From Maricaulis sp. (lineage in GTDB: Bacteria; Pseudomonadota; Alphaproteobacteria; Caulobacterales; Maricaulaceae): a DNA stretch of 64,000 bases. The stretch lies in assembly GCF_017643475.1 (NCBI RefSeq), contig NZ_JAEPNI010000003.1, forward strand, positions 1 through 64,000, read 5' to 3'. Below the pieces are notes generated by a model that was not told the DNA's origin, searched no databases, and was given only the letters and a program-made list of their open reading frames with translations. Position numbers and translations under genes: made by a program. This document shows, piece after piece, positions 3,275 through 64,000 of this stretch (position 1 is the first letter of the stretch; the number at the start of each line of letters is the position of its first letter).

Positions 3275-4586
3275 TCCTGCCGCCGGCAAGACGTCTGGCG
3301 CATTGCCGTTCAGCCCGTATGAATTCATGATTGCGGGGCGTTTTGTCGGCGCAACCCGCAAGGATGGCGGCGTCGCGCTGATTGCGATTATCTCCTTCAT
3401 CGGCGTGGCCCTGGCCGTTGCGGCCCTGATCACCGTCATGTCGGTCATGAACGGCTTTCGCACCCAGCTCTATGAACAGCTGCTCGGTGCGCAGCCACAT
3501 GTCTATGTCGATGCCCGAGTAATGACGCCCGATGACGTGTCCGAGCTTGTCGTCGAGCTGGAAGCCATGCCTGGCGTTGAAAGCGCCGACCCGGTTGTCC
3601 AGGGGCAGGTCATGGCGGTGTCTGATCGTTATGAGACCGTGATCCAGGTGCTCGCCGTGGAACCCTCCGATCTCGCACAGATGGAACTGGTGACGCAGGG
3701 CGAGACAGCCGGCAGCCTGACGGGGATTATTGCAGGCTCTCTGGGGCGTTTTGGCAGTGGGCGTTATGGCGGCAATGGCATCGTGCTCGGCCGCGGCGTC
3801 GCCCGCCAGCTCGGCGTCAGCATTGATGACCGCGTGACCTTCATCACCACCGCCATGCGCAACACGCCGGCGGGAAGTATCCCCACGCAGAAGGCCTATT
3901 ATGTCGACGCCATCATCTCGACCGGTGTCTCAACCATTGATGATGCGCTGGCCTTCATGCCGCTGGAGCAGGGCAATCTCTTTTTCCAGAAAAACGGGGT
4001 GGTGGACCTGATCCAGATCCGTCTGGATGATCCGATGTTGTCGGCCAGTTTTGTGGCGCCCATCCAGGAACGCGCCGGGGTGAATTCCTCGGTCTTTGAT
4101 TTCACAGGCCAGAACCCGGCGTTTTTTGATGCCCTGCAGATGGAGCGCTCGATGATGCGGCTCCTCCTCTCTGTGGTGATCGGCATAACCGCGATGAACA
4201 TCATCGGCGGGCTGGTCATGCTGGTGAAGGTCAAGAGCGGTGACATCGCCATCCTGCGCACGGTGGGCGCGACGCGCGCCTCGATCATGCGGATCTTCCT
4301 CCTGGTCGGCGCGACGATCGGCATGCTGGGTACGCTTTGCGGGATCATCCTGGGCGTCGTTCTGGTGCTCAATATCGGGCCGATCCAGGATGTTCTGAAC
4401 GCGCTGACCGGTGGTCCGGTATTTGATCCGTCGGTCTATTATCTCTACCGGATCCCGGCCGAGCTCGATGTCGGCGAGATCTTCTTCGTTTCCATTTTTG
4501 GCCTGATCATGTCCCTGGCTGTCACGGTCATCCCGGCCTGGCTGGCCTCCCGTCTCGATCCTGTGGAGGCGCTTCGTTATGAGTGA
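3267..4586 (+). CDS. lolC: Lipoprotein-releasing system permease LolC/LolE
   Basis: Inner-membrane subunit of the LolCDE transporter, which extracts outer-membrane lipoproteins from the inner membrane and hands them to LolA. The 439-residue protein has one membrane helix near residues 37-60, a large periplasmic MacB-like domain, and three C-terminal FtsX-type helices ending in [13 protein letters not shown], the typical LolC/E end. The open frame extends back to 3180, but the ATG at 3267 gives the normal N-terminus ([18 protein letters not shown]) and overlaps the proS stop. One permease gene is present, so LolC and LolE cannot be separated here; a homodimer or a second copy elsewhere is possible. 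It overlaps lolD by 8 bp, implying coupled translation. Confidence 0.93.
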
Positions 4587-5268
4587 TGCCGTTCTCGAAC
4601 TGCGCGATATCGAGCGGACCTATGTCACCGAGGCTGGCAATCTGACGGTCCTGCGCGGGGCCAGCCTGACGCTGAACCCGGGAGAAATTGTCGGCCTGAT
4701 CGGGCCCTCCGGTTCCGGCAAGTCCTCCCTGTTGCATGCTGCGGGGCTGCTGGAGCGCCCCGACGCCGGGGAAGTGGTCATTGCGGGTGAGAACACCCGA
4801 GAACTCTCTGACCGCGGACGCACGGCGCTGCGCCGCTCTGAGGTCGGATTTGTCTACCAGTTCCACCACTTGCTGCCTGAGTTCGACGCGCTGGAAAACG
4901 TCGTCCTGCCACAGCTCGTAGGCGGCAAGGGTGTGCGCACGGCACGCAAGCATGCCACCGAGCTTCTGACTGGGCTCGGTCTCGGCGAACGCCTCACGCA
5001 CGCGCCGTCTCAATTGTCCGGCGGTGAGCAGCAGAGAGTCGCCATCGCACGTGCCCTGGCCAATGAACCACGGGTACTGCTGGCGGATGAGCCGACGGGC
5101 AATCTTGATCCGGCGACGTCGGAGAGCGTCTTCCTGGCGCTTCAGTCCGCCGTGAAGGAGAGGGGCGCTGCGGCTCTTATCGCCACGCACAATCACCAGC
5201 TGGCAGAGCGCATGGATCGCGTTGTCACGCTGGATAACGGTCGCCTGACGGCCTTCGATCCGGCCTGA
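4579..5268 (+). CDS. lolD: Lipoprotein-releasing system ATPase LolD
   Basis: ATPase that powers lipoprotein release with the permease encoded just upstream. In 229 residues it shows Walker A ([11 protein letters not shown]), the signature [15 protein letters not shown], Walker B ([12 protein letters not shown]) and the H-loop ATHN. This is the MacB/LolD subclass of ABC ATPases. The start overlaps the lolC/E end (ATGAGTGA). It is followed by an SOS-type regulatory region, so the proS-lolC/E-lolD unit probably ends here. Confidence 0.95.
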
Positions 5269-5273
5269 CTGCG

Positions 5274-5288
5274 GAACAAATCTGGAAC
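5274..5288. promoter_or_regulatory. LexA box 1 (GAAC-N7-GAAC)
   Basis: GAACAAATCTGGAAC matches the direct-repeat SOS box of alphaproteobacteria (GTTC-N7-GTTC on the other strand). It starts 6 bp after the lolD stop and lies upstream of the -35 hexamer of the small-protein promoter. Confidence 0.8.
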
Positions 5289-5306
5289 AAAAATTCGAAT
5301 CAGGTG

Positions 5307-5347
5307 TTGACGGCGGCCTTTATCGTCGAATAGAACAAATCAGGAAC
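5307..5347 (+). promoter_or_regulatory. SOS promoter with LexA box 2 over the -10
   Basis: A TTGACG -35 (5307-5312), 18-bp spacer and TAGAAC -10 (5331-5336) form a promoter. The second LexA box, GAACAAATCAGGAAC (5333-5347), begins inside the -10, so LexA would block RNA polymerase. The lexA gene at 29.6 kb has the same hexamers (TTGACG, TAGAAC) with a box in the same place. Both boxes share the spacer AAATC-G. Confidence 0.75.
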
Positions 5348-5366
5348 ATTGGTTTGGGAGGGCGAT

Positions 5367-5462
5367 ATGCGCCGCATGATTCAAGATATGTCCGCTGCTA
5401 CTGCAATTCTTGGCTTCACCTGGATGATCACGATGTGGGGCTCTATTTTAGGCGCGTCCTGA
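5367..5462 (+). CDS. sidA: SidA-like SOS-induced 31-residue membrane peptide
   Basis: A 31-codon ORF starts at ATG 5367 after a good ribosome site (GGGAGGG, 5356-5362) and ends at TGA 5460-5462. Residues 1-7 are basic/polar (MRRMIQD). Residues 8-29 form one hydrophobic helix (AATAILGFTWMITMWGSIL). Two LexA boxes and a promoter precede it. Caulobacter SidA is a 29-residue single-helix inner-membrane peptide, repressed by LexA, that blocks division through FtsW; as I recall it is also encoded next to dnaE. Size, topology, SOS control and position before dnaE all fit. I infer orthology from these features and did not compare sequences. The dnaE start is 66 bp downstream, so SOS readthrough into dnaE is possible. 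Confidence 0.8.
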   Translation: MRRMIQDMSAATAILGFTWMITMWGSILGAS

Positions 5463-5528
5463 TCGCGCTAGTCTGCCAGGATTCGAGCGTCGCCTAGCGG
5501 CGCGGGTCCGGGCACTCAGGAGATCAAC

Positions 5529-8500
5529 ATGGACAAGAAGCTTCCCTTTGTGCATCTGCGCGTCCGGTCTCCTTATTCGCTCCTAGAAGGGGCGATCCGC
5601 ATTCCCAAAATGGTCGATGCCTGCCAGGCCTATGGCATGCCCGCCATCGCGCTGACCGATACGAATAATCTTTTCGGTGCGCTGGAATTCTCCGAGAAAA
5701 TGGCCGAGGCCGGGATCCAGCCCATTGTCGGCATCACCCTCTCGGTCCGTGTGTCTGACCCGCATCCCGGAGAGCGCGCAGAACCGGATGGCACGCTGGC
5801 GCTCTACGCCCAGAATGCCGAGGGTTATCTCAACCTCATGGCGCTGACCTCTGCCGCCTTCCTCGATGTGGACGGCGCGGAGGAGCCGCAGGTCGCGCTG
5901 GACAATGTGCTGGAACATAGTGCGGGTCTGATTGCGCTGACCGGCGGGCCTGACGGGATTCTCAACAAGTATGTTGTGACTGGACGAGAGGCGGAAGCGG
6001 CTGATGTGCTGGGGCGATACCAGGTGGCATTCGGAGATCGTCTCTATGTCGAACTACAGCGCCACGGTCTGGCCGAAGAACTGACCGCCGAGGACTGGCT
6101 CGTCGACGAAGCTTATGCCCGTGACCTGCCACTGGTCGCCACAAACGAGGCCTTTTTCCCGGACCAGGGCATGCACCGCGCCCATGACGCGCTTCTGTGC
6201 ATTTCCGAAAGTACCTATGTCTCGGTCCAGGAGCGGCGCAAGGTCACCGCAGATCACCATCTCGCCACGCCGGACGAGATGCGGGAACGCTTCAAGGACT
6301 TGCCCGAAGCGCTTGAGAACACGATAGAAGTCGCCAGTCGTTGTGCCTATCGTGTACGCACGCACCCGCCCATCCTGCCCAGTTTTGAAACCGCCGAGGG
6401 CCGGGACGAGGCGGAGGAACTGGTCGCCCGCGCCCATGACGGTCTGACCGACCGTATTGCCGCGGGGCAGGCAAATTCCCTGCCGGAAAGCGAGTATCGC
6501 GAGCGCCTGGATTTCGAGCTCAACATCATCAAGCAGATGGGGTTCCCGGGTTATTTCCTGATCGTCTCGGACTTTATCCAGTGGTCCAAGGAAAACGATA
6601 TTCCGGTCGGTCCCGGCCGTGGTTCCGGTGCGGGCTCGCTGGTGGCCTATGCCCTGACCATTACCGATCTCGATCCCTTGCGGTTTGGCCTCCTGTTCGA
6701 GCGTTTCCTCAACCCCGAACGTGTTTCCATGCCCGACTTCGACGTCGACTTCTGCCAGGAACGGCGCGGCGAAGTGATCCGTTATGTGCAGGACAAGTAT
6801 GGCCACGACCGGGTCGCCCAGATCATCACCTTCGGAACACTCCAGGCCCGTGCCGTGGTGCGCGATGTTGGGCGTGTGCTGCAATTGCCGTTCGGTCTTG
6901 TCGACAAGCTCGCCAAGCTGATCCCGGCTAATCCGGCCAATCCGGTTACCCTGGCCGAGGCGCTCAATATCGAGCCGCGCCTGAATGAGATGCGGGCCGA
7001 GGACCAGGCCGTCGACAGCCTGCTGGAAGTGGCGCTGAAGCTGGAAGGCTTTTTCCGCAACGCCTCCACCCACGCCGCCGGTGTTGTCATCGGTGACCGC
7101 AAGCTGTCCGAACTTGTTCCGCTCTATCGCGATCCGCGTTCCGATATTCCCGCCACCCAGTTCAACATGAAATGGGTGGAGCCGGCCGGTCTCGTGAAAT
7201 TCGACTTTCTCGGACTGAAAACCCTGACGGTGATCGCGCGGGCGCTGGGCTATATCGCGTCAGCGGGCAAGGAGGTCCCCGATATCGAGGCGGTCAGCCT
7301 GGAAGATCGCCCGACGTACGAACTCCTGGCCTCGGGAAATGCCATCGGCGTGTTCCAGCTCGAGAGCTCGGGCATGCGCGATACGCTTAAAAAGATGAAG
7401 CCTGACGCGATCGAGGATCTGATCGCGCTCATCTCGCTTTATCGACCGGGCCCTATGAAGAACATCGACGTCTATGTCGACCGCAAGTTCGGCCGCGCCG
7501 AGGTGGATTGTCTTCACCCGGACCTGGAAGGCGTCTTGTCGGAAACCTACGGGGTCATCATCTATCAGGAACAGGTGATGCAGATCGCCCAGATCCTGTC
7601 GGGCTATTCGCTCGGTGAGGCCGACCTTCTTCGCCGCGCCATGGGCAAGAAGAAAAAGGAGGAGATGGACAAGCAGAAAGTCCGTTTCCTTGATGGTGCC
7701 GAAGAGAATGGCGTTGATCGTGCCAAATCCTCGTACATTTTCGAACTTGTTGCCGAGTTCGCCGGTTATGGTTTCAACAAGTCTCACGCTGCGGCCTACG
7801 CCGTCATTGCCTACCGAACCGCATTTCTGAAGGCGAACTACCCTGTTGAATTGATGGCCGCGCTGATGTCGCTCGACGCCGCTAACACTGACAAGCTTGC
7901 TGCTTTCCACCAGGAAATCCGCCGCATGGGCATCACGGTTCGACCGCCGGATGTAAACGCATCCAATGCCGATTTCTCGGTCGAGGAGGGCTGTGTACGT
8001 TTTGCCCTGGGCGCCATCCGCAATGTCGGTTTTTCTGCGATGGAACACATTGTTGCCGAACGCGATGCCAAGGGGCCGTTCAAGGATCTCTACGACTTTG
8101 CCGAGCGCATTGATCCACGTCAGGTCAATCGTCGCACGTTCGAAAACCTTGCCAAAGCGGGCGCTTTCGACACCATGGAACCCGACCGGGCCAAGGTCAT
8201 CGCGTCTGCGGAAATCCTGCTCTCCATGGCCCAGCACACTGCTGAACAGCGCGAGAGCGCCCAGGCCAGCCTGTTTGGCGGCGGTGGTGGCGAGGTCGAG
8301 CTACAGCGGCCCAACCTGCCCGAACCTGAACCTTTTACCGCCCAGCAGCGTCTGGACGAGGAATTGTCAGCCATCGGCTTTTATCTCTCCGGCCACCCGT
8401 TGGACGATCTGACGGAACAACTGGCAGGCCGCGGCGTAGTGATGTTCGCGGAAAGCACGGGCCGCGTGCTTGAAGGCGCTACGGCCTTGCGATTGAGCGG

Positions 8501-8981
8501 AGTGGTCCGTCGGCGTCAGGAGCGTGTATCCAACAAGTCCGGCGAACGTTTTGCCTGGGTCACCCTGTCCGACCCGACGGGCGAGTTCGAGGTCTTTGTG
8601 GCGCCGGAGCTTCTGCGCACCTCTCGAGACCAGCTGGAAAGTGGTACAGCCGTTCTGGTCAATTGCCGTGTCGATAATCGAGACGAGCAAATCAGCTTCT
8701 TTGCTGACCGGCTGGAAGTTCTCGATACCCGGATGGCGGCGCACAGTCTGAAAATCCGTCTCGACGACCCTTCCGCTCTGGCCGGGATCAAGGCGCGGCT
8801 CGACCGGGCCAACTCCCGTTCGGATGCCCAACTGGACGCGGCGGTCAATCTGTTCGTGCCGCTGCGCGATGGTGGGGAAGCCGAGATCCGGCTGCCGGGG
8901 CGCCATTGCGCTGATGCTGCGGTGCAAGCCGCGCTTCGTGCGGTGAGGGGCGTTGCCAGCATTGATGCGGAGCTGGCGTGA
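5529..8981 (+). CDS. dnaE: DNA polymerase III alpha subunit
   Basis: Replicative polymerase subunit, 1150 residues, the usual DnaE1 length. The N-terminal PHP domain ([16 protein letters not shown]) has lost the second histidine of HxH; E. coli DnaE also has a degenerate site. [14 protein letters not shown] near 362-375 and PDFDVDFC near 402-409 belong to the palm and supply two catalytic aspartates. The third is in [11 protein letters not shown] near 559. A helix-hairpin-helix region follows, then an OB fold ([20 protein letters not shown]) near 980. AQASLFGG near 910 resembles a beta-clamp binding motif. The start at 5529 follows CAGGAGATC. It lies behind the SOS small-protein gene. Confidence 0.97.
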
Positions 8982-21996: not shown

Positions 21997-22852
21997 GTCT
22001 CCGGCAATATCTGGCAGATGGTCACGCCTTGGTATCCTGGCGGGGGGGGGTGACCTTCCCAGACTCATTGCCGAGGCCGAAGCTGAACGATCCCCGCTGG
22101 TTGTCGAACTCACCGGATTTGTGGACCGCGAATTTCCCGAGTTCGAGACCGCGCAGTTTTCAGTCGGGCAGATCGGTGCGATCTGCAAGGCCCTGAAAGC
22201 CGGCGGCTGTGACGCCGTCTGTTTTGCTGGTTACATTCAGCGCCCTGACATCAAAACACTCAAACTGGATGCGCGTGGCATGATCATGGTGCCCAAGGCG
22301 CTGGCCGCTGGACGGAAGGGTGATGATGCGCTGTTGCGGGTGGTCGTCGGCGAGTTTGAAACACAGGGTTTCAAGGTTGTTGGCGCGAACGAGGTGCTCG
22401 AGAGCCTGACACCGGATGCCGCAGCCGGCTTCAATTCCCAATCAGTACCCGAACACCAGCATGATGTCGTAAAGGCCTGTGCTGTCGCGCGCGAAATCGG
22501 CCGTCTGGATATCGGTCAGGGCGCTGTGGTCGCCGATGGGCTGGTTCTAGCCGTGGAAGCCCAGGAAGGCACAAACCAAATGCTGGAACGGGTCGCCGGC
22601 CTTCGGGCTGAGGTCCGTGGAACACCGCAGGCGCGACGCGGCGTGCTCGCCAAAATGCCCAAACCGATCCAGGAGCGTCGAATCGATCTGCCGACAATGG
22701 GTGTGGAGACCATCGAGCGTGCGTCTGCGGCAGGCCTTGCCGGTATCGCCCTGCAGGAGGGTGCGGCCCTCATCGTCAATCGAGATGCCGTTGAGGCCGC
22801 CCTTCGCGAACATGACATGTTCCTGGCGATCGTGGAGCCGGCGGATGAGTGA
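21989..22852 (+). CDS. lpxI: UDP-2,3-diacylglucosamine diphosphatase LpxI
   Basis: Hydrolyses UDP-diacylglucosamine to lipid X plus UMP. It is the alphaproteobacterial replacement for LpxH and is unrelated to it. The 287-residue protein starts [19 protein letters not shown] after a short leader. The C-terminal catalytic domain contains [18 protein letters not shown] and [15 protein letters not shown]. The frame is open back to 21953, but ATG 21989 (overlapping the end of lpxA) gives the normal N-terminus. A run of eight G near 22040 is a place to check for sequencing or phase error; the frame reads cleanly across it. Confidence 0.93.
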
Positions 22853-28927: not shown

Positions 28928-29629
28928 CTAGTGATAGCTACGCAGCAGGCCGACGAGCTTGCCCTGAACCTTCACCCGGTGTGGCGGGAAGATACGGGTC
29001 TCGTATTCCGGATTAGCCGCTTCAAGCGCGACAGACCCGCCTTTCTTGCGCAGCTTCTTCAGCGTGGCTTCCTCGTCATCGACCAGCGCGACAACGATGT
29101 CGCCTGTATCGGCCACATCGCAGCGACGGATGAGGACCGTGTCACCATCGAGAATACCGGCCTCGATCATGGAATCGCCGTTCACTTCGAGCGCGAAATG
29201 CTCGCCATTGCCCAGCATGTCAGCCGCGACGGGCAGGCGATCGGTTTCGTGCTGGATGGCAGAAATGGGAACACCGGCAGCAATACGCCCCAGCATGGGA
29301 ACCTCGATCGTGCCGCGATCATCGGAGGGGGCTGCACCCTGGCCTGTGAAATCAGCGCGCACCACATTGGGACCAAGATCGGCTGATTTTTCCTCGGTGT
29401 TTTCAGCGGCGGCGCTTTCGGGAAGCTTGAGGACCTCCAGTGCGCGGGCGCGGTGGGCAAGACGGCGGATGAAACCGCGTTCTTCCAGTGCCGTGATCAG
29501 GCGGTGAACGCCGGATTTCGAGGCCAGGCTGAGTGCACCTTTCATCTCGTCAAAGGAGGGTGAGACACCGGTTTCCTTGATGCGCTCATGGATGAACAAA
29601 AGCAGTTCATGTTGCTTGCGGGTCAGCAC
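28928..29629 (-). CDS. lexA: SOS repressor LexA
   Basis: Represses DNA-damage genes and cleaves itself with RecA-ssDNA. I start the protein at GTG 29629, which follows GGAGGGAG; the open frame continues 10 codons upstream without a better site. The 233 residues contain an N-terminal winged helix ([16 protein letters not shown]), the cleavage site Ala118-Gly119 (RIAAGVPIS), catalytic Ser153 (GDSMIEAG) and Lys191 (EEATLKKL). The linker is long, about 40 residues. A LexA box overlaps its own promoter. It lies behind trpC on the same strand. Confidence 0.95.
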
Positions 29630-29677: not shown

Positions 29678-29706
29678 GTTCTACATGTGTTCTATTTTGT
29701 CGTCAA
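29678..29706 (-). promoter_or_regulatory. lexA promoter with LexA box
   Basis: On the minus strand, TTGACG (29706-29701), a 17-bp spacer and TAGAAC (29683-29678) form the promoter. The box GTTC-TACATGT-GTTC (29678-29692) covers the -10. The hexamers are identical to those of the small SOS gene at 5.3 kb. Negative autoregulation is expected. Confidence 0.8.
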
Positions 29707-63053: not shown

Positions 63054-64000
63054 ATGCGCAATCTAGCCATTGCCATGCTTGTCACGAGCGTGGGTTTTGC
63101 CGCCGTGGCGGAGGCTCAGCCTATCCGTCAGACGTCCAGCGACTGGCGCGACGCCTTTCGTCAGATGGAAGACGAGGACTGGCCGACACCCAATGATGAA
63201 CGCCGCGCGACGGGAGCGCCGGGACCGGCCTACTGGCAGCAACAGGTAGACTACGTTATCGAGGCGCGTCTGGACGAGAACTCCCACGTGATCACGGGCG
63301 CGGCGACGGTGACCTACACCAATAACGCGCCGGACACGCTGGATTTCCTCTGGTTCCACCTCGACCAGAACCGCTTCCGTCCGGACTCCATCGCGGTAAT
63401 GACCGAGACGATTGGTGGCGGTGAACGTGCCAGTTCGCGCCTTGGCCGCATCTCGACCGATGGTATCGCCGCGCGGGCTTTCAATCGCCGGCGCCTTGTT
63501 CGAGAGAACGGCTATGGCCAGAACATCACGGGTGTGACTGCAGCCGATGGGGAGACATTGGAATTCACCATCGTCGACACGCTGATGCGGGTGGATCTGG
63601 AAACGCCACTGGAAACCGGTGACAGCGTCACTTTCACCATCGACTGGAACCATCGTCTGCTGGAAACCCTGTGGGCCGGTGGCCGGGGTGGTGTCGAGTG
63701 TTTTGACGATTACGACAATTCAGGTGGCGATTGTATTTTCCAGGTCGCGCAATGGTATCCACGAGCGGCTGCCTTTACAGATTTCGAGGGTTGGCACAAC
63801 AAACCCTTCCTCTCTCGTGGTGAGTTCACGCTGGAGTTTGGCAATTACGATGTTTCGCTGACGGTTCCGCAGGACTTCATTGTTGCCGCGACAGGCGAGA
63901 TCCAGAATGCCGACGAGGTTCTGACCGAAGAGCAGAGAACACGCCTGGAACAGGCACGCACGGCAGACGAGCCGATGTTCATTGTGACCCCGGAAGAGGC
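63054..64000 (+). CDS. Second secreted M1-family metallopeptidase, 3' end outside window
   Basis: The first 315 codons of a paralogue of the 60-kb peptidase. ATG 63054 follows GGGGATTTGGGGAA. The signal peptide is 1-21 (VAEA), and the mature start QPIRQTSSDWRDAFRQ is identical to the paralogue. TYTNNAPDTLDFLWFHLDQN, IVDTLMRVDL and IFQVAQWYPRAA also match. The zinc motif lies beyond the window. Two peptidases around one DUF6702 gene suggest tandem duplication. Confidence 0.9.
   Translation, partial: MRNLAIAMLVTSVGFAAVAEAQPIRQTSSDWRDAFRQMEDEDWPTPNDERRATGAPGPAYWQQQVDYVIEARLDENSHVITGAATVTYTNNAPDTLDFLWFHLDQNRFRPDSIAVMTETIGGGERASSRLGRISTDGIAARAFNRRRLVRENGYGQNITGVTAADGETLEFTIVDTLMRVDLETPLETGDSVTFTIDWNHRLLETLWAGGRGGVECFDDYDNSGGDCIFQVAQWYPRAAAFTDFEGWHNKPFLSRGEFTLEFGNYDVSLTVPQDFIVAATGEIQNADEVLTEEQRTRLEQARTADEPMFIVTPEE

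Follow-up and report, generated by a model that had tools for sequence, protein, structure and literature searches.

A conserved 31-residue peptide gene behind LexA-type boxes and before dnaE in Maricaulis, probably a SidA-type division inhibitor

Layout of the locus

The window, which is the whole stretch of 64,000 nucleotides of Maricaulis sp. DNA analysed here, contains an ABC-transporter ATPase gene (4579-5268), presumably lolD-like, followed by two LexA-type boxes with a promoter, a short open reading frame (ORF) and dnaE (5529-8981). The ORF runs from the ATG at 5367 to the TGA at 5462 and encodes 31 amino acids, MRRMIQDMSAATAILGFTWMITMWGSILGAS; a gap of 66 bp separates its stop from dnaE on the same strand. 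Starting at a TTG codon 18 bp further upstream would lengthen the product to 37 residues; relatives keep the ATG. The dnaE of this genome shares 97% identity with the dnaE of a Maricaulis MAG. The features are listed below.

5274-5288, plus strand: LexA (SOS) box 1, GAACAAATCTGGAAC, exact GAACN7GAAC, upstream of the -35 element
5307-5312, plus strand: -35 element TTGACG (TTGAC in 12/12 genus members)
5331-5336, plus strand: -10 element TAGAAC, overlapping box 2 (TAGAAC in 11/12, AAGAAC in 1/12 genus members)
5333-5347, plus strand: LexA (SOS) box 2, GAACAAATCAGGAAC, exact GAACN7GAAC, covering the end of the -10 element
5356-5362, plus strand: ribosome binding site GGGAGGG, read from the sequence
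5367-5462, plus strand: 31-codon gene of a putative SidA-type single-helix membrane peptide (conservation, pN/pS, profile match, helix model)
5467-5474, plus strand: GCTAGTCT element just after the peptide stop, candidate -10 element for a promoter of dnaE's own (putative function)
5529-8981, plus strand: dnaE, DNA polymerase III alpha subunit, constant neighbour of the peptide gene
28934-29629, minus strand: lexA, presumed repressor, GTG start (TIGR00498, 180 bits over 28934-29626)
29678-29692, minus strand: LexA box of lexA, just upstream of lexA

LexA boxes and promoter

In Caulobacter, GTTCN7GTTC is reported as the LexA box consensus (PMC12700426). The two exact SOS boxes named by an earlier sequence-only reading of this DNA were found at 5274-5288 and 5333-5347, with box 1 sitting 59 nt upstream of box 2, and are conserved in the genus. 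The motif GAACN7GAAC occurs at 4 sites in the 64 kb window against 2.17 expected, at least 4 sites were obtained in 23 of 100 shuffles, and the motif count of the window is by itself not significant. Genome-wide there are 83 sites (45 forward, 38 reverse) versus 44 for the reversed control. The two boxes go beyond chance because they are conserved upstream of homologous peptides: within 150 bp upstream, an exact box is present at 39 of 55 loci and all 55 have one with at most one mismatch, as compared to 14 exact and 423 such sites among 11000 stretches of 150 bp drawn at random from these loci, which are related and non-independent. The fourth site of the window (63937-63951) lies within a long ORF (63054 onward) and is probably due to chance, and a palindromic GAACATGACATGTTC site is found at 22808-22822.

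The promoter whose -10 element overlaps the second box, as the same reading had described it, keeps its layout in all 12 genus members, each with TTGAC, a spacer of 18-19 nt and [T/A]AGAAC, the last overlapped by an exact box; in the window it reads TTGACG-18-TAGAAC. At least two exact boxes are present in 9/12 genus members with a pair spacing of 47, 48 or 59 nt, and a change in spacing by roughly one turn of the helix would leave the boxes on the same face of the DNA. A strict sigma-70 scan of 5200-5700 returned no promoter under a rule that demands T as the last base of the -10 element, which is C here.

The presumed regulators are found in the same genome. Its one lexA match lies inside the window on the minus strand, and the box just before it also reads TAGAAC. 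The recA match is preceded about 112 bp upstream by a box at C7:1378109-1378123, and ftsW is present with 348 bits. The distance between lexA and the peptide gene is about 24 kb.

Gene conservation and anatomy of the peptide

The 31-codon ORF (ATG 5367 to TGA 5462) with its ribosome site GGGAGGG at 5356-5362 was located as first described. Its absence from relatives with conserved boxes had been set beforehand as the outcome that would refute it, and the ORF was found to be conserved in them. Among the 200 genomes of the order, the profile matches the peptide in 12/12 genomes of its own genus and 34/40 of its own family. The 12 genus sequences gave an uncorrected pN/pS of 0.24, and the variable columns by codon position number 15, 5 and 24 of 30. 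These values indicate that the ORF is a real conserved gene and that its peptide sequence is under purifying selection.

The structure model consists of a single helix over residues 2-29 with a mean pLDDT of 93, which agrees with the single-helix product expected. Its hydropathy is moderate, towards the lower limit for membrane helices, with 1.45 over 19 residues versus a median of 1.96. In the 72 alignment rows, an acidic residue (D or E) is found at position 7 in 69/72 (96%), D7 in the window peptide, together with a small residue at position 10 in 93% and an aromatic residue at positions 17 (75%) and 24 (76%). In a helix, positions 7, 10, 17 and 24 would lie on one side, as in a binding face. 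A Pfam search gave no match for any of four peptides; such genes may be easily overlooked, and the wider family may be mostly unannotated.

Linkage to dnaE

Since a terminator scan of 5200-5700 found none between the peptide gene and dnaE, SOS read-through into dnaE would be possible. Compared with shuffled sequences, the predicted RNA fold of 5345-5545 shows no extra stability (z 1.21). The pattern [GC][CT]TAG.CT occurs at the peptide stop or directly behind it in 12/34 family loci, with 22/34 lacking it, as opposed to 11/5784 control stretches, an enrichment that is partly post hoc because the GCTAGNCT pattern was chosen after viewing the alignment. Being -10-like, the GCTAGNCT element may belong to a separate dnaE promoter; a search across the peptide stop for a promoter pattern containing TTG[AGT]C gave 0/93 loci versus 22/9300 controls.

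Distribution among the Alphaproteobacteria

Iterative profiles recognised the peptide in 55 of 81 sequences, namely the window and 80 named dnaE loci (the best 80 of 581), always before dnaE, and the 18064 six-frame segments of those 81 sequences contained no other match below E 0.01. Three further peptides were recognised by eye in the named loci (L070, L073, L088). By record title, the carriers include Maricaulis, Oceanicaulis, Robiginitomaculum, Caulobacter, Asticcacaulis, Brevundimonas, Phenylobacterium, Aquisalinus, a Parvularculaceae MAG, Tepidicaulis, Parvibaculum, a PS1-clade MAG, Pseudolabrys and Phreatobacter. The profile gave no match in loci titled Rhodospirillaceae (L085, L093, L098), Magnetospirillum, Phaeospirillum, Nioella, Maritalea and Hyphomonadaceae (L075, L079). 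These profiles carry a selection: the window peptide itself went into the seed and into alignment A1, as did rows picked for their likeness, the three recognised by eye were added to A1, and the A4 rows were gathered with profiles from the seed and A1.

The whole-genome searches use no positional information, and their genome sets overlap the named loci (G473/L031, G444/L070, G514/L073). In the order of the window genome, 78/200 genomes match, and 77 of the 79 matches share the strand of dnaE and precede the dnaE match by 20-352 nt, measured between matches; the exceptions are a match near a contig end, with no listed dnaE place (G508), and a second, unrelated-looking match (G356). Of the 122 profile-negative genomes of this order, 31 hand-picked from the listed dnaE places were inspected, without a random control, for exact boxes and for any ATG ORF (20-60 aa) containing a hydrophobic stretch, within 600 bp. 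Before dnaE, 6/6 genomes of the window's own family have a short, diverged hydrophobic ORF (exact box in 5), as do 12/12 of family f176 (box in 10) and 3/9 of f175, against 0/4 of f3. No peptide was found before dnaE in the f3 and f175 loci L228-L231, L207, L208, L210, L212, L213 and L215, the last of which has kept a box.

A second order (that of G361), termed Rhizobiales-type because its peptides equal those of the named Phreatobacter loci, contributed matches in 31/199 genomes from 12 families, obtained with a search profile (A2) that had one row in the wrong register. At 29 of 30 loci from this order dnaE follows on the same strand, an exact box is found at 26, and 25 combine the two.

In the class, 21/385 genomes match at E 0.01. 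Sixteen of these 23 matches lie before dnaE, 15 of them with an exact box; one of the remainder is cut by a contig end and has a box (L119), and the six others have neither dnaE nor box. A broader profile matched 23/367 class genomes; 10 of the 14 newly fetched loci have dnaE downstream, one near a contig end has boxes only (L277) and three have neither. At L131, a run of N follows the peptide and the dnaE match begins at residue 108. Among 55 genomes of the phylum, six match, comprising 5/14 alphaproteobacteria (window genome included) and 1/41 others at E 0.007; in G602, from this set, box and dnaE are both present. By profile search, the peptide is undetected in most class genomes, which for such a short and fast-changing peptide does not imply absence.

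Relation to Caulobacter SidA

SidA of Caulobacter is reported to be an SOS-induced protein of 29 aa that interacts with FtsW and arrests division via the FtsW/I/N complex (PMC4211646). Deletion of sidA is reported to relieve the filamentation of a lexA mutant (PMC12700426), and SidA has been modelled on TM7 of FtsW, without high confidence (PMC13396833). The window peptide resembles it in length (29-31 aa), in its one helix with a short charged start, in a LexA-type box near the promoter, in the acidic residue 7, F17 and W19, and in lying directly before dnaE, as in Caulobacter relatives (L035 and others). It differs in having W24, which is common in the family and missing in Caulobacter, and in the two exact boxes at its locus, whereas about 97% of Caulobacter SOS promoters are described as having one (PMC12700426).

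The proposal that the peptide is of the SidA type stood as far as LexA boxes, helix, size and place before dnaE are concerned, and is a fair description of how the peptide would work; a direct match to Caulobacter-derived models was not found. The curated model NF033228 (cut-off 35 bits) matches the Caulobacter peptide before dnaE (L035) at 72 bits, which marks the Caulobacter peptides in that position as SidA. It misses the window peptide at an E limit of 10, with filters that drop most weak matches, and has no match anywhere in the window genome. It exceeds its cut-off in 25/200 genomes of the order, none of them in the window's own family, and in 1/385 of the class; at E up to 1 it reaches 135/385 class genomes, of which all but that one stay below the cut-off and are nearly all taken for noise. 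A Caulobacteraceae-only profile places the window peptide at E 4.4, behind four chance segments.

Because NF033228 and the Caulobacteraceae-only profile miss it, the link of the window peptide to SidA would run through intermediates. With a Rhizobiales-type profile it ranks first of 1524 window segments (E 2.3e-7), and a profile without Maricaulaceae-type rows detects it at E 7e-12 (A4) or 6e-5 (A1). In the opposite direction, a profile lacking Caulobacteraceae recovers the peptide ORF from 27/37 Caulobacteraceae-type loci at E<0.01, and five further loci follow at values up to 0.051, with four uncounted, as the score was printed away from the peptide (L039, L063, L059) or the locus was unlisted there (L071); this profile gives E 3e-4 for L035 and E 1.8 for the Asticcacaulis locus L036. 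All these clade-out tests follow groupings by record title and likeness, and keep the selection described above, their rows having been collected with profiles that include the window peptide.

Judged by these profile matches, the window peptide appears tied to Caulobacter SidA via intermediates in the wider family, and the simplest reading would be a single family of which Caulobacter is a diverged branch. The window peptide shares 17-34% identity with the Caulobacteraceae-type peptides. It would belong to a broader, presumably older branch of the same syntenic family.

On balance, we favour the view that an old SOS division checkpoint, a LexA-controlled membrane peptide of about 30 residues beside dnaE, is common to a large share of the Alphaproteobacteria, with Caulobacter SidA as a derived member. 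It would rather likely span the Caulobacterales, a Parvularculaceae-type family, the Parvibaculum and Tepidicaulis types, the PS1 clade and about ten Rhizobiales-type families, and Caulobacter SidA would then, as we are inclined to believe, have given the family its name and a too narrow model. The titles and abstract openings of the open-licence literature searched do not name such a wider SidA family.

Proposed function and alternative explanations

We consider it quite probable that the locus is an SOS checkpoint gene whose LexA-released peptide halts division, most likely at FtsW. A SidA-like function is well supported by analogy in position, control, size and topology, and the role at FtsW and in division arrest is assigned to the window peptide because its synteny, control and anatomy are like those of SidA. 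In the proposed course of events, LexA on box 2, perhaps aided by box 1, would cover the -10 element of the promoter until DNA damage leads RecA to trigger LexA cleavage and the 31-residue peptide is made. The peptide would then enter the membrane as one helix with its N terminus inside, following the positive-inside rule, and bind the septal synthase complex, most likely FtsW, so that a late division step would stop until repair. LexA binding, induction, membrane insertion, division arrest and the target FtsW are steps that we infer.

The low identity to the Caulobacteraceae-type peptides would allow family members to have come to differ in their target. The peptide could be SOS-induced and act outside the divisome, for example on the membrane potential or another envelope protein; both the very low identity between the branches and the absence of W24 in Caulobacter would allow a change of partner, and the known target is that of the Caulobacter member only. 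We regard this as unlikely, since the Caulobacter peptides have the same synteny, LexA boxes and size, and likewise an acidic residue ahead of the helix.

An explanation in which the peptide itself is unimportant, and translation of a short upstream ORF tunes dnaE and brings the polymerase under SOS control, draws on the position directly before dnaE in nearly all cases (77/79 in the window's own order, 29/30 in the order of G361) and on the lack of a terminator in between. Purifying selection on the amino-acid sequence, a hydrophobic helix kept across orders, a distance to the dnaE match that varies from 20 to 352 nt and the possible separate dnaE promoter after the stop all argue against it, and we find it very improbable. 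A chance ORF downstream of SOS boxes, for which one could cite the shortness of 31 codons and the non-significant motif counts of the window, has practically no probability left: it is ruled out by the conservation across all 12 genus genomes and the pN/pS of 0.24, along with the codon-position pattern of the variable columns.

Should the wider family act as SidA does, the extent of division arrest after damage in Alphaproteobacteria would become directly testable, with gene, promoter and place predictable from dnaE. The roughly 70 divergent versions of this small helix that occur in nature, with the conserved face D7, A10, F17 and W24, would be useful for finding how a peptide of 30 residues blocks the septal synthase, and the almost invariable position beside dnaE suggests that the control of replication and that of division may be connected.

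Comparison with other damage-induced division inhibitors

SulA of Escherichia coli is a different, soluble protein. It is likewise described as a LexA-controlled division inhibitor, and differs in acting on FtsZ (PMC4211646). The family discussed here may represent the principal equivalent of SulA in Alphaproteobacteria, lost in some lineages. DidA of Caulobacter is reported as a small, DNA-damage-induced membrane division inhibitor of the FtsW/I/N complex as well (PMC4211646), but it is induced by DriD and not by LexA. YneA, SosA and ChiZ are also described as DNA-damage-induced small membrane division inhibitors; YneA is reported to interact with FtsW, and the same is predicted of SosA and ChiZ (PMC13396833). 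The genes yneA, chiZ and sidA are called unrelated (PMC4211646). YneA and ChiZ have a LysM domain.

A second SidA-like peptide was observed at one locus (L199, G397 C3); it comprises 37 aa, reaches 28.5 bits to NF033228 and has no exact LexA box within 150 bp, and its genome also carries a dnaE-linked copy.
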